Below the pieces are notes generated by a model. That model saw only the letters and a program-made list of their open reading frames with translations. It had not been told where the DNA came from and searched no databases. The position numbers and the translations under genes are program-made. A DNA stretch of 64,000 nt. Source: Prostheceraeus crozeri (taxonomy: Eukaryota; Platyhelminthes; Polycladida; Euryleptidae). The DNA is taken from assembly GCA_907163375.1 (NCBI GenBank), contig CAJQUW010014359.1, positions 496,001 through 560,000 of the forward strand, in the 5' to 3' direction. How positions within the stretch are numbered: the first letter of the stretch is position 1; every line of letters starts with the position of its first letter. Shown here one piece after another: positions 3,401-64,000 of the stretch.

Positions 3401-5214
3401 CAAGCATTTTCATATTGTCAGTTCGGAGGAATCAGAATGAAAATGAATAATCGATCCTTGTTTCGCGTTTTAGATAGATTCCCTAACATGCTACCTGAGA
3501 GAATAAAACAATCATATTTGTACTTAATGTTGCAAATGTTATTAGACGAGTATATAGTACATTATATTTATAAACTTATGATGTCATAGACTCCTATTAG
3601 CAAAAATCGTATTCGCAATATTTTTGGCTGAAATATTGCCTTGTCAGATACCTACAATTTAAAATCACGATTTTGCTTTGCTCCGTTCATTGATAAAATT
3701 GATTTCATAGACTAGTCTGTAGGTAAAGGTTCAAATCTAACCCCAAACTTAATACATTAAGTTGACACATTAAACGCACAGAAAGTTTTTATTGAACTGT
3801 GAAAGTGATGCATCTTGAAATGGAGTACCTGATTAGCAATGGGCAAGTGAAATACTAGGCCTATTTATGCATAGTGTTGAATCGATAAAGTGCCAACTAT
3901 GAAAGAGGAACTCATTTTCTTATTTAAAACATCAGGCGCAAACACTAATTCAATCTACTTGATTTCCTGAAATCAAATAACATCAAATGAAAATTGTTAG
4001 TTATTGTAATGAATTGCAGTTAACAGAATTGGTAGTTCTGCCGATTTCATAATCTCATATTCTTCTATCAAGTCACTAGGCTTTATAAATTCTGTTTTTC
4101 TGAGCAAGCGCTTTCTTCTCTTAAACTGAATGATATAAGCTGATCAAAATTTCTTCGCTATTACTCATTGGCTTGTCTACCTAACTGCCTGTGTGGGTTA
4201 GATAGATGTAATTGAATTTCTTCAGAGAATCTGATGAACATCGTAGTTGAATTTAGAATTCGAGACAGCGCGTGTTTCAGCCTTGATCGATCTGCAAAGC
4301 GTATTTAGAATGCATAAATTTGATAAAGTTTGTCTGCATGCTTCATCTTATGTTGTAGTCAGCCTCACAGCTAGGAAAGTTTGCAACATAAAACATGCTA
4401 TTATTTGTTAATTCAAGGCTCATTAATGCCATTCAATGTACATTATCCAATGTTTTTTCAACAAAATCGTTCTAAATTTTGGAGATAAATTATTTCCTCC
4501 TTCAATACAGAAATTCCCGACAAAATTCTTGTTAAAATATTCTTTATCGTAAGTATGCATGTATGTTAATTAGATTGCTGATTAGCTAATAATCAGATGC
4601 GATATACTAATTGTCATTCCCTAAAGAATATAATTATGCCATTTCTGATATCTTAAAACAACATTCTGTTCAAATTGTTCAAACATCATTGAAATATTAG
4701 ATTCTTATCAAGTTCAATTTTATTTATATTTGTATCAGTTTCCTCACGGAACGATGACAAAGTCTGTTTACAAATGGAAAATGCACCGTCAAAAGCCAAG
4801 GAGCAATGTGAATCAGTGAGAGTTCATATAGCTAGCTCGTCTGAGCGCACAAAAGTCCATAGACTTTCAAAATTTGAGATCGAAATTCCTTGACAACCTT
4901 GAAATTACGTTTAACTGTAAAACTCTCTCTCTCTTCTTGGCAAGTGCCTCTATCATTACACACTAACATTTTCTATGTAAATATCATCCTTGTGCACCGT
5001 GTGTAAAGTATGACATTATGATAAGGAAATTTGCCTTGGTCCACATTTGCTGGAAGAATTTCACAAAATAGTCATTCCGGTTGAAAAAAATTGTAGAGAA
5101 TTTTCCCCTTAGAGAAGTTATGGTCATGACGAAAAAATACTGTACATATAATACATGGTTTAAGACTTTTGAGGACATGTTTTTTTGGCGACATGATTTA
5201 AGATGCTTTAGTTG
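477..5214. other. Non-coding stretch, nothing recognised
   Basis: About 4.7 kb of AT-rich sequence. The longest open frames (for example 1827-2138 and 3062-3301) show no motif, no codon pattern and no splice context that I recognise. Two exact TAGGCCTA octamers lie at 1108 and 3856. I see no repeat boundary, tRNA or gene here. Confidence 0.5.
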
Positions 5215-13026: not shown

Positions 13027-13934
13027 GTGTGCTCGTTGACAGAAGAAGAAGATTTGAGTTTCGTTGCTAGCAGTGCTGATGCAATTGTCCCTTATTACCG
13101 AATTTCAGACATGAAATCACCATGTTTCAATGTTGTCAATGTCATGGCAAGTTTGGCTTCTTTTGAGACGAATATCATCAATGACAAATTTGAGAAGGCA
13201 ATGACTGCCTTAGAGTTGTATGGTGATGTTCTTGATTCCGAAGACGATCACATGAAACTGATTTTTTTGACTGAACAACTTTCTTTGATTAATGTCTCGA
13301 ATGTAACCTGTCGAGCAGTGAGTGAACTAGCTAAATATCTTTTGTCTCGTGGCTATCGTTGCGTTCTAACCGGAGATTTCCAATCCGATCCAATAGAGAC
13401 GTTTTGACTGGTTATGACTGGCGGAAAATTTTTTGGCCCGATTCGCCAAGTTCTTGAGAACGAAAAAAATATTCGGATACTATCGCTACTTAAATTCAGT
13501 AACATCATAGTCGGTGATTTTCCTTCTTCCGCCAATGAATCAGAATATGAAAATCAAGAATTTCTTTATGATAATATAAACGATTCTCCAATATTTTACA
13601 TCGAATTTACCGGCTTAAATGTGATAGTTTATGTATCTGCTATATTGCAAATTCAATAGCATAAAGAATGAATTGTAGAAATTAATCGTAAATTTTACGT
13701 AGCAGTAAATGCTTTCCAGAACCAATATTTCATGATAGTGATATGCGCGATTATACAGCATTTATTGATATAGTAAATCGTGGTGGATTGACAAGGCCTT
13801 CTGATGTTGTCTTTTCTGTATCAATTGTTTGCTTTTCGATATTTGATGAGTTGTGTTATGAGAATATTCTTCCATCTTTTACGAGCATGAGGAGCTCTCG
13901 TAATGTTTTTATTGAAATACTTGACGAAAAATAA
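13027..13934 (+). pseudogene. Decayed C-terminal part of a P-superfamily (THAP9-like) transposase
   Basis: Three pieces in order. The first (13027-13407) ends in YLLSRGYRCVLTGDFQSDPIE, the conserved motif before the C-terminal domain of P-like transposases. After a TGA at 13405-13407 the same frame continues with PIRQVLENEKNIRILSLLKF, the usual next block. A degenerate YVSAILQIQ is followed by a stop. After a gap, 13743-13934 gives VNRGGLTRPSDVVFSV, the last conserved block. The catalytic RNase H-like region and the THAP finger are missing. With its nonsense codons it cannot encode a working protein. It lies about 0.9 kb after the Crypton but belongs to an unrelated superfamily. The superfamily call rests on motif order seen in related invertebrate proteins, without a search. 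Confidence 0.55.
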
Positions 13935-55433: not shown

Positions 55434-55830
55434 GACCGTTCCAGGACACCATAAAATTCAAAAAAATAGTATCTTTAAAAACGACATAAATTCATGAATT
55501 TGAACCCTTTTTCAGGTTATTAAGACTTAAATACATGAATTTAGTCCATTCAAAAAGTACCATTTTTTCAAAAAATGACATTTTTAAAAACGACATAAAT
55601 TCATGAATTTGAACCTTTTTTCAGGTTATGAAGACCTAAATTCATAAATTTGGGCGTTTTTAAAAATACCCAATTTTCAAATTTTTCAAAATCTCAAATT
55701 TGTGATTATGATCATTTTCTTGCTCAAATCATGACCGTTCCAGGACACCGAAAAAATCATAAAAGTTAAGAATCTCAAAATTTGAGAATTACAATTTTCA
55801 TTGCTTAAATCATGACCGTTCCAGGACACC
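55434..55830. repeat. Repeat-rich left end of the virus-like element
   Basis: The 17-mer GACCGTTCCAGGACACC occurs exactly at 55434, 55733 and 55814. Between the first two, a block around CGACATAAATTCATGAATTT is duplicated with a 109-base period (55481 and 55590), followed in both by TTTTTCAGGTTAT. The second and third 17-mers share further flanking sequence with an 81-base period. Such iterations would fit the terminal inverted repeat of a polinton, but the opposite end is not in the window. Confidence 0.7.
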
Positions 55831-56000
55831 GAAAATCATAAAAGTTGAGAATTTCAAATTCATGAATTTTATCCATCTTTCAGGTTTTTAAAATATATCA
55901 TGTGACTAATAATATTTCTTTAAAAGTGGAAGAAACAAAAGTGGAAGAAGCCGCAAGAATATATCCTTCAATATCATATGAACGTAGTTCTACTACCCCC

Positions 56001-56040
56001 TCCCTTCTAACTTCTAGGGGTCCCTTCTGACTTCCAGGGG
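56001..56040. repeat. Two tandem 20-bp units upstream of the protease
   Basis: TCCCTTCTAACTTCTAGGGG is followed directly by TCCCTTCTGACTTCCAGGGG, and a third partial TCCCTT. Each unit is GC-richer than the surroundings and can pair CCCCT/AGGGG across units. It ends 27 bases before the protease ATG. Confidence 0.75.
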
Positions 56041-56067
56041 TCCCTTAAGAAATTTTTTTATTATAAA

Positions 56068-56556
56068 ATGAGCAACATAAATGAGTTTTTGAAATTATAT
56101 GGAACACAAACGACAACGAATTTCGACCTAAAGAAAATCGCTAATCGATTAGGAATAAAGAATTTTCATGTTCTAATGAGAGAAGAATTACAATTCCTAA
56201 AAAATAAGCCAACAGGAACCTTCAGTTCCCGGAACAAAGTTCCATCAATAACTGTAAATTTCGTAACCAATCTTCACACTTCAGACCAAAAAGGCGTACA
56301 TTGGTCAGCAGGCGTTAAAAATCATCAGCAGAACTATTATTTTGATCGCCCGGAGGCTGAGAACTATTGGTTCGATTCATACGGTTTGCCCCCTACAAAT
56401 GAAGTAACAGAATTACTTGGAACGGGAACATACAATACGTTTCAAATTCAAACACCAGGCACTACCTATTGTGGACAATTATGTTTATACGTTTTGTACA
56501 AATTACAAAAAGGAGTACCATTTCTAGATATAATGTTAGAATTGAACAAACCGTAG
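56068..56556 (+). CDS. Adenovirus-type cysteine protease (adenain fold), virion maturation protease
   Basis: An intact 162-codon frame from ATG 56068, preceded by a TATAAA-like stretch (TTATTATAAAATG). Family members cleave capsid precursors during virion maturation. The catalytic residues can be read: His78 in KGVHWSAG, an acidic residue at Asp103 in WFDSYGLPP, and the nucleophile in TTYCGQLCLYVLYK, where Cys139 (the second Cys of C-G-x-x-C) aligns with the adenain nucleophile; the nearby Gln127 may form the oxyanion hole. The length is typical for polinton proteases. The gene converges on the integrase gene. Its stop codon TAG lies inside a GC-rich double hairpin (56549-56572), so the C-terminus may have been altered by that insertion. 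The protein looks complete and could be functional. Confidence 0.85.
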   Translation: MSNINEFLKLYGTQTTTNFDLKKIANRLGIKNFHVLMREELQFLKNKPTGTFSSRNKVPSITVNFVTNLHTSDQKGVHWSAGVKNHQQNYYFDRPEAENYWFDSYGLPPTNEVTELLGTGTYNTFQIQTPGTTYCGQLCLYVLYKLQKGVPFLDIMLELNKP

Positions 56557-56572
56557 GTTCTATGGCTACGCC
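56549..56572 (+). repeat. Double-hairpin unit at the protease stop codon
   Basis: Stem AACC/GGTT with loop GTA, spacer CTAT, then stem GGC/GCC with loop TAC. It aligns without gaps, at most positions, to the units at 62421 and 63414. The TAG that ends the protease frame is contributed by the first loop. Confidence 0.7.
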
Positions 56573-56578
56573 TAACAA

Positions 56579-56593
56579 GGGAATTTCATTCCC
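56579..56593. terminator. Hairpin between convergent protease and integrase genes
   Basis: GGGAA and TTCCC separated by TTTCA. It lies in the 71-base gap between two convergent genes, where a bidirectional transcript end would be expected. The role is inferred from position only. Confidence 0.4.
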
Positions 56594-56627
56594 GAAACGT
56601 TAGTTCCAATAATAATAATAATGATAA

Positions 56628-57977
56628 TTAAAAATCACTTCGTTGTAATTCATTTTGATAAAATCGACCTCTGATATCTTCATCATCTAAATCTTTGATT
56701 TCGTAAGTAATCGGATAACTTTGATTTATTTTAGAAATTCCAAATATCTCTTTCGTCCAGTATCCGACGAAGCCTTTTTCAAATTTATTCTTATATTTAA
56801 ATATTCTAACTCTATCTCCAATTTTAAATTTCGGCTTAAGTTTCTGCAAATTCGGATTACTCTCATTCAAATTATTATTCTCGAATATTTTTTTTCTTAT
56901 CAAATCAGGGTCGACAGAAGCATTCTTTGGAGTTTCTTCAATACCAGAATGAACTTTATTATTGTACTCTTCTACAACTCCTGGTAATATCTTCAACCAT
57001 TTCTGATTTCCTTGCTGAGTAAATTTTTTGAAAATTTTATTTTTTAACGTCCGATTGAATCTTTCTATCACTACAGCTTTTCCTGCGTTTTCAGTTGAAT
57101 AAACAGTTTCAAATAGTGGCTGAACGTTTCTGTTATAAAATTCCGACCCTTTATCAACAAACAATTTCCTTGGCTTTCTATTACTTTCTTTAAAGATTTC
57201 TTCAAACGCATATTTAACTGATAGACCACTTTTATTTTTTAAAGGTTTTACCCAAGCGTATCGTGTATATAAATCTATAACGGTCAATGCGTATTTGTAG
57301 TCCCTTTCATTCGGCATATGAATAAGATCAGCACTCCAAATATCATCTTTATTAAATACTTTTACTTTCAATAAATATTTAGGCCTTCTGTATTCTTTAT
57401 GAATTTCAGACGCGTAGGTTCGAGCGTTGCTCTCAGAGTTATTAGTTCGAGCGTTGCTCTCAGACAGCTTTGCTGTCGTTTCATTTAAACCCTGACCGAA
57501 TAATATTTTAGCTTGTAAAGCTTTCTTAACAAACATTCTTTCAATTTTTTCTCTAAATGTAGGATTTTGAATACTATCTAATTCTTGAATCATCTTCTTA
57601 TCAGCTGCATGTCGAGAACTTAGATCATGATTTCGATAAGCTAAATCATGCCTGTAAGCTGCGGCATCTACTCTATTTATTGGTTCTTCACCTGGTTTCG
57701 GATTATTATTCTCATCTAGTCTTATATCTAATCGAGTTCCTGGACCAGTATATGAATGACCAGGAAGATGTTTTTCTTTCGAATATTTACTCCAAATAAA
57801 TCCAGGAAAGTTTTCTAATGTTTTTTGTATATCACCACCGAAGTGGTATGGAACTTTGTTCTTGTCACCTCCAATATGCTGACAATGTGAGTTTTTATTT
57901 TTGTTTAATAGATAATTCAATAAATCTAAATTAGAAATTTTTAATTTAATTAAATTTTCGGAATTTGTGGAATTCAT
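56628..57977 (-). CDS. Phospholipase A2 domain fused to DDE (polinton-type) integrase
   Basis: One uninterrupted 449-codon frame from ATG 57977. Residues ~55-160 form a parvovirus VP1-like phospholipase A2: calcium loop SYTGPGTRLD (Gly78-Pro-Gly80), then NRVDAAAYRHDLAYRNHD with catalytic His110-Asp111, and the closing FVKKALQAKILFGQG. Such domains breach endosomal membranes during entry. Residues ~190-350 are a retrovirus/polinton-type integrase: Asp217 in WSADLIHM, VIDLYTRYAWVKPL, Asp275 in LFVDKGSEF, Glu305 in VIERFNRTLKN. The second Asp-Glu spacing is 29 residues, about five fewer than usual, so a small loop may be lost. Residues ~380-445 look like the C-terminal chromo/SH3-like tail (FKIGDRVRIFK). 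The linker (167-188) is encoded by a cluster of GC-rich hairpins and contains the repeated peptide SESNART. The two domains are normally expected on separate proteins, so the fusion is notable. Confidence 0.83.
   Translation of the reverse strand: MNSTNSENLIKLKISNLDLLNYLLNKNKNSHCQHIGGDKNKVPYHFGGDIQKTLENFPGFIWSKYSKEKHLPGHSYTGPGTRLDIRLDENNNPKPGEEPINRVDAAAYRHDLAYRNHDLSSRHAADKKMIQELDSIQNPTFREKIERMFVKKALQAKILFGQGLNETTAKLSESNARTNNSESNARTYASEIHKEYRRPKYLLKVKVFNKDDIWSADLIHMPNERDYKYALTVIDLYTRYAWVKPLKNKSGLSVKYAFEEIFKESNRKPRKLFVDKGSEFYNRNVQPLFETVYSTENAGKAVVIERFNRTLKNKIFKKFTQQGNQKWLKILPGVVEEYNNKVHSGIEETPKNASVDPDLIRKKIFENNNLNESNPNLQKLKPKFKIGDRVRIFKYKNKFEKGFVGYWTKEIFGISKINQSYPITYEIKDLDDEDIRGRFYQNELQRSDF
57422..57477 (-). 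repeat. Hairpin cluster at the phospholipase-integrase junction
   Basis: On the minus strand: stem GACAGC/GCTGTC with loop AAA, then stem GAGC/GCTC with loop AAC, then a second copy of the GAGC/GCTC hairpin 27 bases further. It encodes residues 167-188 (AKLSESNART and a repeat of SESNART). GC-rich in a very AT-rich gene. Confidence 0.75.
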
Positions 57978-58010
57978 TTTAAAAGATAAAATAAATGATT
58001 TACCTTATGA

Positions 58011-58034
58011 ACCAAAGGTCCTGAGGTTATTACC
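58011..58034. repeat. Weathered double-hairpin unit between integrase and small hydrophobic protein genes
   Basis: ACC/GGT with loop AAA, followed by CC/GG with loop TGA. It matches the best-preserved units at about 15 of 24 positions in the same register. It overlaps the last codons and stop of the upstream (58030-58515) gene. Confidence 0.4.
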
Positions 58035-58515
58035 GAATCATACTAGGACTTAGATATATTCCAGAACCATCTTTAGTTTCTTTAATTTCAATTAAATCAT
58101 CAACATTGTGGAGAATATTTTTAAGAACTCGTTTTCCTTCATCAACTAATTTTAATTTACTAATAAAATTATCTACTACTCCTTCACCCCTAGCAACTTT
58201 CTCTAACTCTCTGTTATGGCGTTTTTGTTCTTCTAATGCTGCCTTCTCTGATTTATTTTTATTTACTGCTTGGACAATACCAGCTGTCCCACCTGCAACA
58301 CTTCCTGCTGCTGCTATGCCACCTATTATTAGGGGAATTAATGGGAGAATCCCGCCATTCTTTTCTTCTTGTAATTGAATATTCTCTATCATTGGTTTAC
58401 TTATGTAATACTTTTTTTTATTAATAGTAATAGTTTTAGGGGTATTTTTGTCAACAATATTACGTAATTTTAATTCAACAGTTTTATTATTAATATTACT
58501 TTTCGCTTGCGACAT
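58030..58515 (-). CDS. Small glycine-rich hydrophobic virion-type protein (pX-like)
   Basis: An intact 161-codon frame from ATG 58515. The N-terminal ~50 residues are basic and polar. Residues 54-83 form a glycine/alanine-rich hydrophobic stretch (GGILPLIPLIIGGIAAAGSV onward), which could insert in membranes. The rest is charged and helical, with EKAALEEQKRHNRELEKVAR likely a short coiled coil. Small proteins with such a segment are common near the capsid gene in polintons and adintoviruses and are compared with adenovirus core protein X or membrane-active proteins; the assignment is by position and composition, not catalysis. It is transcribed with the capsid block, 52 bases upstream of the integrase gene. 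A fully different role cannot be excluded. Confidence 0.55.
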   Translation of the reverse strand: MSQAKSNINNKTVELKLRNIVDKNTPKTITINKKKYYISKPMIENIQLQEEKNGGILPLIPLIIGGIAAAGSVAGGTAGIVQAVNKNKSEKAALEEQKRHNRELEKVARGEGVVDNFISKLKLVDEGKRVLKNILHNVDDLIEIKETKDGSGIYLSPSMIR

Positions 58516-58709
58516 TTTTAATAAAAAAATTTTAAGTTATCAAAAATTTAAATCTATTCTAGTTATGAAAAATTTTAATCTATTCTAGTTATTAAAAAAT
58601 TTCAAGTTACTAAAAAATTTTAAGTTACCAAAAAATTTTAATCTATTCTAGTTATGAAAAATTTTAAGTTAAGAATTTTTAATCTATTCTAGTTATGAAA
58701 AAATTTTAA
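58516..58709. repeat. AT-rich repeat array between capsid and small hydrophobic protein genes
   Basis: At least four copies of AATCTATTCTAGTTAT alternate with AAAAATTTTAAGTTA words, making up almost the whole 194-base gap. It lies directly upstream of the pX-like gene's ATG, so it may hold its promoter or form the 3' end of the capsid transcript. Confidence 0.75.
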
Positions 58710-60044
58710 TTAACTTATCCTTACCATCTTTCCATTAAGAATTTCAATAGAATATTTTACATCTTCTAGCAATAAACCATAAGCCATCAATGAAGTTGTG
58801 GAATCTTTCTTTTCAATATTAATTGTTACATCACAACCATTTTTAATAATATCTTCAGATTGTGCACTTAAATCGAAACAGAAAATTGGATATAAATGTC
58901 TCCAATCTCCAGGAGTTAATTGTGGTTCAACTCCAAATTCTGTACAAAGATTTCGATAACAATCATATCCTTCCATAAATTGATTATTGGTATCATCGAA
59001 TCTTAATGGATCAATTGGATAACGGGTTTGATTTAATGAAACTTGTAAACTTCGAATTGTATTAATATGAAAAATATTGTTGTTCTTATCAAAACTTGGA
59101 GAATTATTTCTTTGAAATGTTAGTAATAAATATCTTGGAGTATTCGCAGTTCTAGTAAAATGCCAGTTAAATCTTTGTTCGGAAAAAGTTACTGAACTAG
59201 CAGTACGCTTTAGAAAATTTACTGGAATTGGTTTGTTAGTATTTAATCTTTTTGCAATAGCTGTTTCAACCTCTAAACTAGGAGTAATATGCTTAATCCA
59301 CCATTCAAGTCTATCAATTTTTAAATATGCTTTTTTCCCAGTCTTACCAAAAAAGATTAATTCATTATTTGCTGTACGATGAATTATTAATTTAAATTTT
59401 AATTGATATGATATTTTATCATAATCTAAATATCCGAATAATGGAGACAATGACCAATTAACTGTCTATTTACTTTTCTTGTTAAATTCACGTCTTTCTT
59501 TATATGCTTCATTATTTGTTTTATTTAAATGTTTTGCAATATTTTCTACATCTTTCGCAATTCCTGCTGCATCTGTTCCAGCGTGAGTTAAATCATCAAC
59601 AATTATACCATCATTAGTATCAGGAAACCAACCTTCGATTTCATACTTTTTATTATTTTCACCAATTGTTATAAATCTAAGCATTGTATCAATTACACCT
59701 GGAGAATCACTTATTGTTTCTATATTTTGAGTTGCAACATCTAAACGCATTTGTGTAAATAATCTTGGAAAAAAATTATTCTCTAATGCAATATTATCGG
59801 TTTCTGGTAATGGTGTTGTAAAATTAGCATCACTATATAAAGAATATTCACAATGTAAAAACGAATCAGGTAAATATATATAACTCTGCTGATTATCAAC
59901 TTCAAAAATTAAACCACCTCCAGTATTTACTCTACTGGAAGATCCGGGATTCATAGCAATTCTTATATAGTCATTCTTTTTTTGATTATTACTGACGAAC
60001 GGAGGATCGTCTAATCTAAATTTATTTTCGATAAGCGAAGACAT
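58710..60044 (-). pseudogene. Major capsid protein (double jelly-roll, hexon-like), interrupted by one in-frame TAG
   Basis: Starts at ATG 60044 and runs 192 codons to a TAG at 59466-59468. The same frame then stays open, without a shift, to a stop at 58710, giving about 444 codons in all, a normal capsid size for the group. The upstream part has IYLPDSFLHCEYSLYS, NNFFPRLFTQMRLDV and SPGVIDTMLRFIT; the downstream part has SPLFGYLDYDKISYQLKF, KIDRLEWWIKHITPSL, the sheet segment RYLLLTFQRN, and GDWRHLYPIFCFDLSAQ. These blocks in this order match polinton/adintovirus major capsid proteins, which form the icosahedral shell. Since no ATG follows the stop for some distance, the downstream half is not a separate gene. 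Either this copy is inactivated or the stop is read through. Confidence 0.8.
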
Positions 60045-60137
60045 TTTTATAAAAAATAATTTGACTTTTTGTTTTTCTCACAGACAGAAAAAAATTTTAC
60101 TAAAAAAATTACTAAAAAATTTTACTAAAATATAATT

Positions 60138-60650
60138 TTAGAATTTTGCTAGACCAGCTCCGCTACAGCTTTGCTGGTTAGACCGAAGGTTGCTGCTCAC
60201 GCCATTACCTCTTATTTCTTCAATTGTTTTTTCATTATGTTTACTATCAGACGGAGCTCCGCTCCTCAAGGTTTCACCCCCCACAGCTATGTTAGCAATT
60301 TTATTTTTTGTTTCCTCTGAAAGTTTTTTTAAATTTTTTAGTTCTTCGGAATCATTCCTAAGTTTACGAATAGCTTCTAGTTGTTTTAATTCGTTTTGTG
60401 ATTTAACAGCATTTGATATTGCACTAGCTGTACTACCTATAGCAGCTGCTCCTTTTGCAGCAGATGTAATAAAATCTTTATTATTTTTAATTAAGTTAAC
60501 GATACTACCAATACCAGAAAAGATGCCATCTCCTTCTTTTTGAACGGTTTCTCTATTATCATAATGGTAAACAGGATTCATACGTGGTTCATGAGCAATT
60601 TTTTGATTTGAAGCAAAATGTTTAAGATTGTGTTTATAAATTATAGGCAT
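60138..60650 (-). CDS. Small amphipathic virion-type protein (possible membrane-active or minor capsid protein)
   Basis: An intact 170-codon frame from ATG 60650. After a basic N-terminus, residues 40-82 form a glycine/alanine-rich amphipathic stretch (GDGIFSGIGSIVNLIKNN, then FITSAAKGAAAIGSTASAIS). Residues ~84-120 are a charged helix (KSQNELKQLEAIRKLR onward). The pattern of an early GxGIF..I segment followed by a helical region recalls adenovirus protein VI-like lytic proteins placed beside the capsid gene. Two GC-rich hairpin units lie inside it, encoding residues 125-133 (GETLRSGAP) and 154-165, so much of the C-terminal tail is insert-derived and probably dispensable. Its function is inferred from composition and place. 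Confidence 0.5.
   Translation of the reverse strand: MPIIYKHNLKHFASNQKIAHEPRMNPVYHYDNRETVQKEGDGIFSGIGSIVNLIKNNKDFITSAAKGAAAIGSTASAISNAVKSQNELKQLEAIRKLRNDSEELKNLKKLSEETKNKIANIAVGGETLRSGAPSDSKHNEKTIEEIRGNGVSSNLRSNQQSCSGAGLAKF
60156..60191 (-). repeat. Triple-hairpin unit in the C-terminus of the amphipathic protein gene
   Basis: On the minus strand: stem AACC/GGT with loop TTC, stem CAGC/GCTG with loop AAA, stem AGC/GCT with loop GGA, with short spacers. GC-rich in an AT-rich gene; in frame. Confidence 0.65.
60253..60278 (-). repeat. Double-hairpin unit inside the amphipathic protein gene
   Basis: On the minus strand: stem GGT/ACC with loop GAA, spacer TTGA, then a perfect 5-bp stem GGAGC/GCTCC with loop GGA. 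It encodes GETLRSGAP in frame. Confidence 0.72.
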
Positions 60651-60703
60651 TTTTTAGTAATAAATTTGACTTTTGAGAAAAAATATTTACGTTAATATTT
60701 ACG

Positions 60704-61591
60704 CTAAGATTTACGTTTGTGAATGGACAACAACTTCGAGATAACTTTATTAATTGACTGTTGCACTTTATCTATTGCGTCAAGTAGCGTGTGATGTACT
60801 TTAATTTCTTTTCTATTAACTTGCATTTTCTGCTGATTAATCTTCAATGCCGTTTTAAGTGCATTTAACTTAATTTTAAAAACATCTAATTGTCTTTTAA
60901 CAGAATCTAACTGTTCTTTATTTTCTTTAGAGTTTTCTTGTAAATTTTTCTTTAATTCATTTTCTAAATTGATTTTAAGAGTTTTCATTGTATCAACTTT
61001 TTGATTAAGTGAGTTTACTTCATTTATTATTCTATTCATCTTTTTCATTTGTTGAGTAATTTTAGAACTTAATTCATCAACACTTTTTTGGAATGTAGTT
61101 TGTAACTGCTTTAAATTTTTTTTAATTCTTTCAGGAAGTTTTTCTATTTCATCTTCTAATTGTTCTTCTAACATTTTGATCTGATGTTTATTTTTAATGA
61201 CTGCAGATTTTAAATTTAAAGAAAGTAATATTAAAATTTTTGATTGTTCAGAAATCTTTTTAAAAAGTTTTGCTATATCTGCTTCTAGCTCTCTATCCAT
61301 TTTATCAAGTTTTAATAATTTTTCGTTTAATGATTTGTCATTAAGTTTTAGCAACTTTAATTCATTCATCAGTGGAACCAAAACATCGTTTATATATTTT
61401 TCCTTTAAATCATTGATTTGTGTATCAACATATTATTTATTTGTTAACTCTGTATTTTGTTGCGGAAGAATAGAAAGATGCAATGGACCAGATAAAACGT
61501 CTCCAGTTTTCATGATATAATTTTCTATCTCTATTTCTAATTCACGATTATTCGGGATATATGCACCTCCACCAACATTTGGTAACATCAT
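60704..61591 (-). pseudogene. Coiled-coil fibre-like virion protein, interrupted by one in-frame TAA
   Basis: ATG 61591 opens a frame beginning MMLPNVGGGAYIPNNRELEI and then GDVLSGPLHLSILPQQ. It meets TAA at 61433-61435 right after LTNK, and the frame then continues unshifted with YVDTQINDL to the stop at 60704. The 'G-x-L-x-GPL ... NK-x-YVD' layout is a known signature at the start of phage and virus fibre/appendage proteins, here divided by the stop. The remaining ~240 codons are almost pure heptad coiled coil (KLDKMDRELEADIAKLFKKI and many similar). A trimeric fibre or spike attached to the capsid is a reasonable inference. Only the shorter downstream frame would escape the stop, from a later start. 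Confidence 0.6.
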
Positions 61592-61696
61592 TTTTAAAAC
61601 AATAAAAAAGTAAAATTTTTTCTAATAAAAATAAAAAAATAAAATTTTTTCTAATAAAAATAAAAAAATAAAATTTTTTCTAATAAAAATAAAAAA
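61592..61696. promoter_or_regulatory. Divergent intergenic promoter region with three 29-bp tandem repeats
   Basis: A 105-base gap between the leftward virion block and the rightward replication block. From 61611 to 61697 it consists of three exact tandem 29-bp units of A/T only (core AAAATTTTTTCTAATAAAAA), the last ending on the A of the 61697 start codon. It is the natural place for divergent promoters; the activity is inferred. Confidence 0.6.
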
Positions 61697-62986
61697 ATGG
61701 AAAATCCAAATTTAAAAAAATTATATTCGCCCGCATCATCCTGTTCTTCTTATTCGACGAGATCAACGGGATTTGAAAATAAATGTTTTGATAATAATAA
61801 TAATAATAATAATCCATGTATAGATGTTAATATTTTATTTCTATTACAAGCCGAAATATTTAGAGAACAAACAAAAGGTTTACCTTCTATAGAAACTAAT
61901 TATTGTTTATTTCCAGGTGAACCATTTATTAAATTTATGGAGATTGTAAGTAAATATAATGATGTAGCTTATGTTGAATTAAATAAAGAAAATATGGTTA
62001 TAATAGGTCATAATAATGTTTATGGATTTATTAGAGCAGTGTTACCAATTAGTAATACTGATTGGATAGAAACTAAAATTATCAATTATATCAATATTAA
62101 AGAATTAGTTAAAAAATTAAAATCTTTTTCCAAAGAAAAAATAAGATTATTTGTTGATGAACAAAATCAATATAACATTCACATAGAGAGTAAAAAACAT
62201 AATGAAGAATTATTATGTCAAGTTTATTATAGAGACACAATTTATAAACAAGAAACATTAGAAATGCCGCAAAGATATGATGATGATACGTACATAGGAT
62301 TATATTCCAACTTAAATATTAATTTATTAAAATCTTATATAAATGGTTTAGCTCAACAAGAGAAAATTTATATGTGGACTACACCTTATACTATTAACAA
62401 TGACCATAATCATAATAAACGAACCGAAGGTTCTAGGGCTTTGCCCGATCTTAAAGAATCTTATGATAATAATGATGATTCTGTAACATCTGAAAAAGGT
62501 GTAAATGGTAAAAAAGATTATAAAAATATTAGTAATTATAAAAATTTATCTAAATTTCATTTTCTTACAATTGAAAATAATAATGATGGTATAGTTGAAG
62601 ATACTGTTAGACAACTATGTGTCGGGTCTACAAAATTTAAATTAGGATTTACATCTAATGAATTTAAAATTTTATCATCTTTAATAAAAACTAAAAGTGA
62701 TTCAGATTATAGTGGTGTTATTAAATTTTCCAAAAGAGATCAAAGACCAATATTTTTCTCTATTATATTATTATCAGATAAGAAATGTAATTTAGAATTA
62801 GATATTCCAATAAGAGAATGGTATCCTATCATGGAAGGGCATCCTATACCAAAAAGTGTAATTTATGATGATGAAGAAACAATTTATGATGATGATGAAG
62901 AATCAATTTATGATGATGAAGAATCAATAGTTAGTGAAAATAAATTTAAATTATCTTTTGATAAAACATTATATGATGAAACTTAA
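61697..62986 (+). CDS. Unidentified 429-aa protein of the polymerase-side module (possible sliding-clamp fold)
   Basis: An intact frame from ATG 61697. Residues ~33-39 are an asparagine run from an AAT repeat. Residues ~72-165 contain a helix (GEPFIKFMEIVSKY), strands (DVAYVELNKENMVIIGHNNV) and INIKELVKKLKSFSKEKIRL, an arrangement that resembles the first domain of PCNA; residues ~310-385 (KFKLGFTSNEFKILSSLI onward) could be the second. No catalytic motif is evident. Between them lies a low-complexity insert, including a GC-rich double hairpin encoding residues 242-250 (TEGSRALP). The C-terminus is acidic with repeats of YDDEES. It starts a rightward pair with DNA polymerase B, 173 bases upstream of it, which fits a replication role. 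The clamp idea is only my reading of the secondary-structure pattern. Confidence 0.4.
   Translation: MENPNLKKLYSPASSCSSYSTRSTGFENKCFDNNNNNNNPCIDVNILFLLQAEIFREQTKGLPSIETNYCLFPGEPFIKFMEIVSKYNDVAYVELNKENMVIIGHNNVYGFIRAVLPISNTDWIETKIINYINIKELVKKLKSFSKEKIRLFVDEQNQYNIHIESKKHNEELLCQVYYRDTIYKQETLEMPQRYDDDTYIGLYSNLNINLLKSYINGLAQQEKIYMWTTPYTINNDHNHNKRTEGSRALPDLKESYDNNDDSVTSEKGVNGKKDYKNISNYKNLSKFHFLTIENNNDGIVEDTVRQLCVGSTKFKLGFTSNEFKILSSLIKTKSDSDYSGVIKFSKRDQRPIFFSIILLSDKKCNLELDIPIREWYPIMEGHPIPKSVIYDDEETIYDDDEESIYDDEESIVSENKFKLSFDKTLYDET
62421..62446 (+). repeat. Double-hairpin unit in the 429-aa protein gene
   Basis: Stem GAACC/GGTTC with loop GAA, spacer TA, stem GGGC/GCCC with loop TTT. In frame, encoding TEGSRALP. 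The core is identical, except for one base in the second loop, to the unit in the polymerase gene at 63414. Confidence 0.85.
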
Positions 62987-63159
62987 TATGAGAAAACTTA
63001 ATATGATAAAACTTAATGTGATAAAGAAAAAAAAATAACTAAAGAACGTGAAATATATAATAATATAAAATAAAACTCAAGTCCTAGATATTAGAATGTT
63101 TATATCTAAAATTAAAACACAATTTTTTTCTTAAATTTTCTCTAAAAAAATTTAAAAAA

Positions 63160-64000
63160 ATGGAAAATACCAAGTTTTATTGTGTCTTATGTAAAAAAAA
63201 GTTGCAAACAAAAAGAAGTTATCAATCTCATTTAAATAGTAAATTGCATTTACAAAATGTAGAACGAGTTGATGAAGGAAATATATTAAAATTAAATAGT
63301 TATAAAAACTATCTAGAAACATTGCCTACTGATATAAAAGTTAAAAAAATGTTTGATGATTATTCACATTCGGAATATAAAAAAGTTTTTAATAGTGAAG
63401 ATGAGACCATACAAACCGAAGGTTCTAGGGCTTCGCCCGTAACAGATGGAAGATATTTATTTAGCGATACTGATGAATTTGATGAAGCTGAACGTAACGA
63501 TGAAGCCTTAGCAAATATAAAATATTTATTTAATCAGTCTTTTGAATATAATGAAACCGATAAAACTTTTTCTGATATTCTAACCAACTTTTCTAATATA
63601 TTTAAGAAATCTTTCAAATGTTATATGAATGTAGAAGTACTTTATACAAAAAATGGATCTGATGGAATTCCTAAAGAAATAATACAAGGACATTTTACAA
63701 AGTCACAAGAAATTCATAATGTAAATAATATACAACCCATATTTCAATCGATGATACTTAAATTAGAAAATTGTATAATTGAAGCCCAGTTAAGTGAATC
63801 TGGTTGGAGATTTGTTAAAATACTATCTAAGAAAATAGTAATTGATAAATATAAAAATAATACTGGTGGTAGTTATGTTCCTTTACCTTTCAGTTCACCT
63901 CAATTAATCAACATAAAAAATGAAGATGATTATTGTTTTCTGTGGAGTATTATAGCACATTTACATCCTGCAGAATATCATAAAGAAAGACTAAGTCATT
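63160..64000 (+). CDS. Polinton-type DNA polymerase B, N-terminal part (runs off the window)
   Basis: Opens at ATG 63160 and stays open for 280 codons to the window edge. It begins with a C2H2 zinc finger (YCVLCKKKL, then HLNSKLH). From residue ~145 it matches the N-terminal region of protein-primed polymerases of polintons: FTKSQEIHNVNNIQP, ESGWRFVKILSKKIV, NTGGSYVPLPFSSPQL and then NEDDYCFLWSIIAHLHPAEY, a highly conserved block of this group. The exonuclease and polymerase domains must follow beyond 64000. A protein-primed polymerase copies the linear element from its terminal repeats. A double-hairpin unit encodes residues 85-93 (TEGSRASP). No break is seen in the part present. Confidence 0.78.
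   Translation, partial: MENTKFYCVLCKKKLQTKRSYQSHLNSKLHLQNVERVDEGNILKLNSYKNYLETLPTDIKVKKMFDDYSHSEYKKVFNSEDETIQTEGSRASPVTDGRYLFSDTDEFDEAERNDEALANIKYLFNQSFEYNETDKTFSDILTNFSNIFKKSFKCYMNVEVLYTKNGSDGIPKEIIQGHFTKSQEIHNVNNIQPIFQSMILKLENCIIEAQLSESGWRFVKILSKKIVIDKYKNNTGGSYVPLPFSSPQLINIKNEDDYCFLWSIIAHLHPAEYHKERLSH
63414..63438 (+). repeat. Double-hairpin unit in the polymerase B gene
   Basis: Stem AACC/GGTT with loop GAA, spacer CTA, stem GGGC/GCCC with loop TTC. Encodes TEGSRASP in the same reading phase as the copy at 62421. Confidence 0.85.

Follow-up and report, generated by a model that had tools for sequence, protein, structure and literature searches.

Rickettsia palindromic elements, bacterial sequences of ~100-150 bp, insert in frame into unrelated protein genes, and the miniature inverted-repeat transposable elements (MITEs) of the Tc1/mariner type are non-autonomous DNA elements with 2-bp (TA) duplications. 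The double-hairpin elements of Allomyces and Schizosaccharomyces mitochondria consist of two adjacent GC-rich hairpins and are potentially mobile (PMC10085805, PMC2800124). In the fission yeasts studied nearly all of them are intergenic (PMC10085805), and those of Allomyces, for which an RNA route was proposed, are reported to have no flanking duplication (PMC2800124, sponge paper). The GC clusters of yeast mitochondria have direct repeats of AG or ACT and undergo turnover, merger and shuffling by a mechanism left open, an RNA route having been considered for GC42 (PMC4478555); the movement of organellar double hairpins and GC clusters alike has been left open (PMC4478555, PMC2800124). Bacterial REP elements are hairpins of 20-40 bp, thought to be non-autonomous and in part located within genes, which carry GTAG/CGTC tags and have the RAYT HUH transposase as their proposed mover (PMC3733652). 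For adintoviruses or Polintons we found no report of such elements in the open-access literature searched, and our claim is limited to that literature. The sequence analysed here (the window) is a stretch of 64,000 nucleotides from the polyclad flatworm Prostheceraeus crozeri, bases 496001-560000 of one contig in a genome of 2.05 Gb and 14,165 contigs. From ~55.4 kb to its end, the window is occupied by an integrated viral element, which we take to be adintovirus-like, and this element is strewn with GC-rich hairpin units that appear to have been inserted as blocks.

A preliminary description of this DNA had named several such units and read them as a mobile, copy-spreading palindrome that tolerates in-frame insertion. 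We found every unit it named, and that reading is supported by empty sites, by sequence shuffles and by ~13,200 copies in the genome, so that the observation is both confirmed and extended. The commonest unit, here called A, is C-GAACC(GAA)GGTTC-TA-GGGC(TTC)GCCC-G, 28 nt long. The principal units and empty sites of the window are as follows (L numbers designate other loci compared with it; ORF, open reading frame).

63412..63439, + strand: unit A, 28 nt, at site a of the DNA polymerase gene; TA repeats at 63410-63411 and 63440-63441
62420..62447, + strand: a further 28-nt copy of unit A, with loop TTT, inside ORF 61697-62986; flanked by AA and AT, which do not match
57448..57478, - strand: 31-nt unit from a different family, inside the PLA2-integrase linker, with a TT repeat at either end
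57421..57447, - strand: 27-bp tandem duplication of the first integrase hairpin plus flank; absent in L080
56547..56573, + strand: 27-nt unit of GTA/TAC type that covers the stop codon where the protease-like ORF ends; flanked by AA repeats
63509..63510, no strand: empty site b (TA); filled by unit A in L039, with TA duplicated
63542..63543, no strand: empty site c (TT); other copies carry +30 or +39 bp elements
55794..55795, no strand: empty site (AT) in a terminal-repeat-like tandem unit; 25 loci have the filled string and 13 entries, the window among them, the empty one
55648..55649, no strand: another empty site (AT) in terminal-repeat-like DNA; 9 loci have it filled by CGGCTAAAGCCAGAGGAGCTTCGCTCCG, and 4 entries, the window among them, have it empty

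The units at 62420 and 63412 were rightly described as a near-identical pair: they differ by one base in the 25-nt core and both encode TEGSRA(L/S)P in one phase. The unit at 60253 is a single hairpin, and the second stem of the one at 56549 has 3 bp. The unit reported at 57422 is real but contains the local 27-bp tandem duplication; an additional repeat of this tandem step occurs in L105 and L124. With ≤3 mismatches, the 25-nt A core AACCGAAGGTTCTAGGGCTTCGCCC occurs at 13,197 places in the genome, while the GTA/TAC-type unit occurs at 1,859 and the integrase-type unit at 3,448; the controls, a reversed pattern in the case of A, gave 0 each time.

The argument for movement is carried by copies of the same viral DNA that differ in their units. 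Aligning the start of the polymerase ORF (PolB) from 47 fetched loci with the window gave 27 distinct sequences, L050 being equal to the window and L010 a repeat of L005. The unit at site a is missing in the paralogues L002, L022, L030, L033 and L039, while site b, empty in the window, is filled in L039. Site c holds 30 bp in L002, L014, L017, L022, L033 and L085-L092, and a different element of 39 bp at the same place in L023, L032 and L093-L096, the two sharing both ends. Site d, found in a second subfamily, holds an element in L097 and none in L101 or L104; its repeat is AA. Two sites in the terminal-repeat-like DNA, where tandem units inside one locus may differ in filling, and the integrase, where L126 is without 33 bp present in L131 between near-identical flanks, bring the filled/empty pairs to seven. 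Throughout, the filled sequence equals the empty one plus the element plus 2 bp, save for single flank substitutions at a and d: a 2-bp direct repeat (TA, AT, TT or AA) flanks the unit, and the empty site holds that dinucleotide once. The comparison of genes with and without units, proposed earlier as a check, has thereby yielded copies with clean empty sites.

Lengths of the wider set of PolB matches are in keeping with these steps. Among 138 scored matches (the best of 8,468 candidates, and biased towards carriers of unit a because they are the best-scoring), 113 are 840 bp long, the window included, 17 are 870 bp, four 879 bp, three 849 bp and one 843 bp; the 8 of 17 matches of 870 bp and 4 of 4 of 879 bp that were read have the +30 and +39 bp at site c. 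Outside these copies, the public protein P0127 shows a ten-residue gap matching unit a, with both flanks retained and smaller gaps further on, and P0007 falls short by 15 residues where the integrase unit lies, a difference that is not one exact block. Since the best identities of these two proteins in the genome are 74% and 86%, they belong to viruses distinct from the copies compared here. Gain is the simpler reading of the pairs, because insertion needs an empty site with a single dinucleotide and P0127 is empty at a; the second subfamily is without a wider stretch round a and b and is uninformative on direction there. The unit at 62420 is absent in L002, but the flanks are rearranged in that copy, leaving no clean empty site, and a degenerate unit at 62423 corresponds to a gap of 24 bp.

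Many of the units lie inside genes. A phase census covered 160 A units with ≤3 mismatches, overlapping loci being recounted, and took in frames that run for ≥120 codons inside the locus; by construction it left out the sense phase that contains a stop. In sense phase 0, which reads TEGSRASP or TEGSRALP, stood 83/160, and a single unit (1/160, the 62420 site) was in sense phase 2. Antisense units made up 15/160 in one phase and 3/160 in another, and 58/160 lay in no 120-codon frame. Phase 0 is kept at a, b, c, 62420, the forward unit of L025, L037 and, by reading, at d. The clean gains within genes measure 30, 33 and 39 bp, all in frame, to which one 48-bp block is added. Polymerase frames that bear units are open for up to ~1,550 codons, and the unit of L037 sits 16 residues past YDFNSLYSS, in the polymerase core. 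These data bear on whether the hairpins might be transcription terminators or polyadenylation signals at gene ends, as could be supposed from the unit at 56547, which spans a stop codon, and that at 60154, which stands at the end of an ORF. Close copies vary in the presence of units, however, and the many units within open frames, those of the polymerase included, contradict such a role; we reject it as very improbable. Block gains with 2-bp repeats, the many sites and the in-frame gains in genes identify the units as mobile micro-elements rather than terminators.

A further alternative is that the hairpins are chance palindromes or an assembly artefact. We counted hairpins with a 3-nt loop whose stem is perfect, ≥4 bp long and has ≥3 G/C in its arm, and found 11 in window 56001-64000 against 0.83 expected (sd 0.95, max 5; 500 dinucleotide shuffles). 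Block shuffles of 200 bp (mean 1.13, max 5) and 60 bp (mean 1.56, max 6), 300 of each, did not approach the observed number either, so that the refuting outcome named earlier, as many hairpins in shuffled sequence, did not occur (0.8-1.6 vs 11). Across loop lengths of 0-10 the largest excess is at 3 (11 vs 0.81), with loop 10 as runner-up (8 vs 0.86), and adjacent hairpin pairs number 2 vs 0.002 expected in shuffles. The first 56 kb shows a weaker excess (34 vs 20.5 at loop 3) that is not specific to loop 3 (loop 9: 41 vs 19.9). When a 29-nt unit was matched against the sequence, 62419 (27) and 56546 (24) scored above shuffles and 58007 (18) did not: the best match in the first 56 kb is also 18/29, and a top score of 18 was reached in 5 of 60 shuffles of the 8-kb viral part. 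The worn copy placed at 58011 thus stands at chance level by sequence, its 18/29 being equalled both by shuffles (5/60) and by an opposite-strand stretch at 56347. That chance-level copy and the weak folding energy considered below are what speak for chance or artefact; the shuffle tests, the 13,197 places against a control of 0 and the empty state of a public protein, P0127, contradict it for the main units, and for these we reject it as having practically no probability.

We next consider the ends of the units. A-like units (≤7 mismatches, overlapping loci included) fell into 12 flank clusters, and the commonest flank pair matches in 7/12: AT/AT in 33/34 units, TA/TA in 51/58 (sites a and b merged), TT/TT in 8/13, AT/AT in 31/31, TA/TA in 2/2, AA/AA in 3/3 and TA/TA in 16/16. 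The integrase unit has TT/TT in 20/20 sampled copies of the 100 listed, where the flanks are recognisable integrase linker; spread of this family is not demonstrated, because the left flanks are alike in the sampled copies. Short repeats and filled/empty pairs could also arise by replication template switching, in which the viral polymerase stalls and its nascent end pairs, over two nucleotides of microhomology, with a unit at another place that has the same dinucleotide beside it; the hairpins are then copied before synthesis switches back. A dedicated enzyme would then be unnecessary, and the apparent duplication would be the microhomology. The 2-bp repeats are A/T dinucleotides, as expected from AT-rich DNA, donors are abundant in the genome, and the tandem duplication of the integrase hairpin would fit; template switching also stays alive because the element type was exchanged in place at site c, where +30 and +39 bp have both ends in common. 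Yet the element ends are constant between sites, no flank beyond the 2 bp was co-carried in the seven pairs, and one family uses four different dinucleotides. On balance we consider template switching less likely than not.

The units are present or absent as blocks with defined ends and 2-bp direct repeats, at many sites, in several families and, at clean sites in genes, with the reading frame kept. The account we favour, with a probability of about 0.6, is that they are non-autonomous mobile micro-elements of 27-37 nt belonging to the adintovirus-like lineage, inserted at the DNA level by an enzyme that cuts with a 2-nt stagger. Under this account a trans-acting enzyme, viral or host, would recognise the double hairpin by its fold and not by any one sequence, the target would be opened with a 2-nt stagger and a copy pasted in, and fill-in would produce the 2-bp repeat. 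Movement would take place at the level of DNA, and harmful insertions would be purged so that in-frame, stop-free ones are left. Insertion by way of RNA, with a folded RNA reverse-transcribed into nicked target DNA, might be suspected from families that have structure and not sequence in common, and from the many units in genes that would presumably be transcribed. The scanned viral ORFs, however, include no reverse transcriptase, the units have no tails, and they occur in both orientations relative to the gene and in terminal repeats too, which makes an RNA route very unlikely.

A weak candidate for the mover is an endonuclease VII-like stretch within the viral polymerase ORF. T4 endonuclease VII cleaves branched DNA and cruciforms close to the branch. 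In the polymerase ORF of L025 (1-1020, - strand) Endonuclease_7 is matched with E 1e-4 and 22.5 bits vs a cut-off of 23.6. The stretch is not peculiar to element carriers, because the relative L001 has the match without a hairpin excess (1 hairpin vs 0.68 expected), and it may simply belong to the usual make-up of such polymerases. L001 is an adintovirus-like contig that belongs to a metagenome-assembled genome labelled Muriicola (Bacteroidota), a label that is probably a binning error.

Several observations count against enzyme-driven insertion. The mover itself is hypothetical, its candidate match is below the Pfam cut-off both in L025 and in L001 (3582-7049, E 0.0024), and rve integrases, the enzyme type encoded by the element, make duplications of 4-6 bp, not 2. 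In the flank test 5/12 clusters mismatch: 62420 (0/33), L016 (1/3), that of a worn unit in L014 and two clusters made up of 27-nt GTA/TAC units. With their own end used, the latter give AA/AA in L008 and AA/GA, no match, in L082. An offset control yielded 5/12 at the true position and equally 5/12 at offset 6; the flank statistic by itself is therefore modest, and the seven filled/empty pairs bear the argument. In ORF 60138-60650 the gaps at degenerate units measure 21 and 22 bp, and the frameshifted copy L042 has a 33-bp gap at a degenerate unit. The in-place exchange of element types at site c is, as noted, compatible with template switching. Finally, the hairpins are thermodynamically weak, with folding energies of z -1.7 to +0.6 vs shuffles for six single-stranded segments, so the case depends on recurrence and on presence/absence, not on stability.

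To determine where in the genome the A units reside, 48 loci were fetched from 100 listed places of the 13,197: the first 8, and 40 picked so that each cluster supplied roughly one; two of the 40 duplicate loci already included, leaving 46 distinct stretches. With the units masked, 46/48 loci match ≥100 nt of viral gene-part DNA (window 56061-64000, L084, L051, L025, L037), a database in which L025 and L037, both polymerase ORF pieces, are themselves included. The other two, L028 and L031, match a terminal-repeat-like stretch only, and 0/48 were assigned to plain host DNA. A narrower comparison gave 45/48 viral loci, 21 of them through the terminal-repeat-like stretch alone. The A family occupies about ten sites in both orientations, in the DNA polymerase, two other ORFs and the terminal repeats. 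Terminal-repeat-like DNA (L003, L006, L043, window 55434-55900) is made of ~108-bp tandem units, many with one hairpin unit each, and unit places occur in inverted sets ~20 kb apart.

Several families with unrelated stems (GAACC/GGGC, GAGC/GACAGC, GACATC/GGGC, GGCT/GGAGC, AGGTT/GGACC) share one layout, which is usually C - hairpin - 2-5 nt - hairpin - G over 27-37 nt. Their relative frequencies mean little, because the loci were selected for the A unit, and A is the one family demonstrated at numerous sites. The dispersed family first proposed is hence changed in outline: it has defined ends and a 2-bp target duplication, comprises several sequence families and extends to the terminal repeats, with A alone at many sites. 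Neighbouring units may be separated by a dinucleotide (L080, L012/L048). In the GTA/TAC units loop 1 GTA is paired with loop 2 TAC in 100/100 listed places of 1,859, and these loops are complementary, as are GAA/TTC of the common unit. We do not claim a kissing-loop constraint: other families are unpaired (GTT/TTT), and the copies share descent. The integrase linker of L115 has a second 33-bp hairpin insert (GGACGC-TAT-GCGTCC) near the integrase unit, with like flank letters in L113 and L118. Scanning IMG/VR gave 0 matches to the unit patterns and no relatives of the integrase or PolB start, and a crude check found the nine typed unit peptides in none of 120 listed integrase relatives (of 1,370).

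Other places in the window are these; the first three, at 58009, 60154 and 60253, are less secure as units.

58009..58034, no strand: possible worn unit, sequence at chance level; L080 has an intact hairpin, AGAACC-AAA-GGTTCT, here
60154..60201, - strand: cluster of hairpins spanning 48 bp, at the 3' terminus of ORF 60138-60650; missing as one 48-bp block in L080
60253..60265, - strand: single hairpin GGAGC-TCC-GCTCC; also in L080-L082
60216..60239, no strand: unit-free place; L082 carries a 30-bp GTA/TAC unit (window 60224), flanks not a clean 2-bp repeat
60683..60704, no strand: intergenic unit-free place; L080 and L081 carry double-hairpin arrays joined by AT

The hairpin CAGCTTTGCTG of the 60154 cluster is also found in L081 and L082. 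A 30-bp block at ~56344-56373 in the protease ORF, which L026 carries and L008, L011 (same place), L018, L043 and L046 lack, mimics a unit. We dropped it as a hairpin unit, because it contains a near-repeat of the adjoining flank and the empty copies do not show the site expected; it is either a local duplication or a worn unit.

Besides its terminal-repeat-like tandem units, the viral element encodes a protease-like protein, a PLA2-rve integrase and a double-jelly-roll capsid, together with the first part of a DNA polymerase. Two ORFs that house sites discussed above are given here.

56628..57977, - strand: PLA2-like and rve integrase ORF (Pfam PF08398, PF00665); contains the unit at 57448
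63160..64000, + strand: start of the DNA polymerase B ORF, running past the window end; contains sites a, b and c

Pfam matches in the viral part of the window are PF00665, PF08398 and PF21738; the protease-like ORF has no Pfam match, and the window part of the polymerase ORF gives zinc fingers only. With a B-family DNA polymerase, rve integrase and double-jelly-roll capsid, the element qualifies as adintovirus-like (Maverick/Polinton kin), where the PF03175 match comes from a downstream polymerase piece of another copy (L037) and not from the window. At a threshold of E ≤ 0.001, 1,370 relatives of the integrase were found, and none of protein P0006. A first look at the genome gave 8,468 PolB and 24,418 integrase candidates. 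Copies of this virus family are thus very numerous; they fall into two or more subfamilies, long open frames persist in many of them, and they seem to stem from a large burst of recent date. The capsid gene is cut by a stop into two ORFs (window 59466-60044 and 58710-59465), and a coiled-coil stretch (60704-61438) is also interrupted by an in-frame stop, so the provirus of the window is partly decayed. In the first 55 kb of the window, hAT, P-like, tyrosine-recombinase and arrestin matches were found among ten scanned ORFs, which points to a eukaryotic host and probably to an animal.

Taken further, these units could be structure-defined transposable elements of ~28 nt in a nuclear-integrated, animal-type DNA virus, for which an enzyme acting in trans, perhaps endonuclease VII-like, reads the hairpins and cuts with a 2-bp stagger, so that elements add peptides to proteins and swap modules; we put this full picture forward tentatively, at somewhat less than even odds. 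Viral proteins, the DNA polymerase included, gain 10-13 residues at once from a mobile element with the frame still open, and the many close proviral copies in one genome make filled and empty sites, ends, target choice and direction measurable at scale.

Among known systems, Rickettsia palindromic elements are alike by description in being in-frame palindromes in unrelated genes, and differ in being bacterial and longer. Tc1/mariner MITEs share the non-autonomous state and the 2-bp duplication, whereas here no terminal inverted repeats were seen and AT, TT and AA are duplicated besides TA. REP elements are likewise short hairpin units, some of them intragenic; their GTAG/CGTC tags are a REP feature, and no HUH transposase was seen in those viral ORFs that were scanned. 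The likeness to fungal mitochondrial double hairpins that was first drawn holds for the two adjacent GC-rich stem-loops and fails elsewhere: 2-bp repeats flank the elements at seven filled/empty pairs, unlike in Allomyces, and the 48 fetched loci match integrated viral, not mitochondrial, DNA. In their behaviour the elements appear to work most like the GC clusters of yeast mitochondria, and less like the Allomyces elements. As in those clusters, short direct repeats stand at the ends (7/12 flank clusters and the filled/empty pairs), and merger or shuffling of modules has its counterpart in the +30/+39 exchange at site c and in units beside units. The yeast clusters differ in being organellar, mostly intergenic and, for GC42, 42 nt long, and are likened here by behaviour; the flatworm elements have TA, AT, TT or AA repeats, reside in an integrated virus and lie, in many cases, in frame within its genes.

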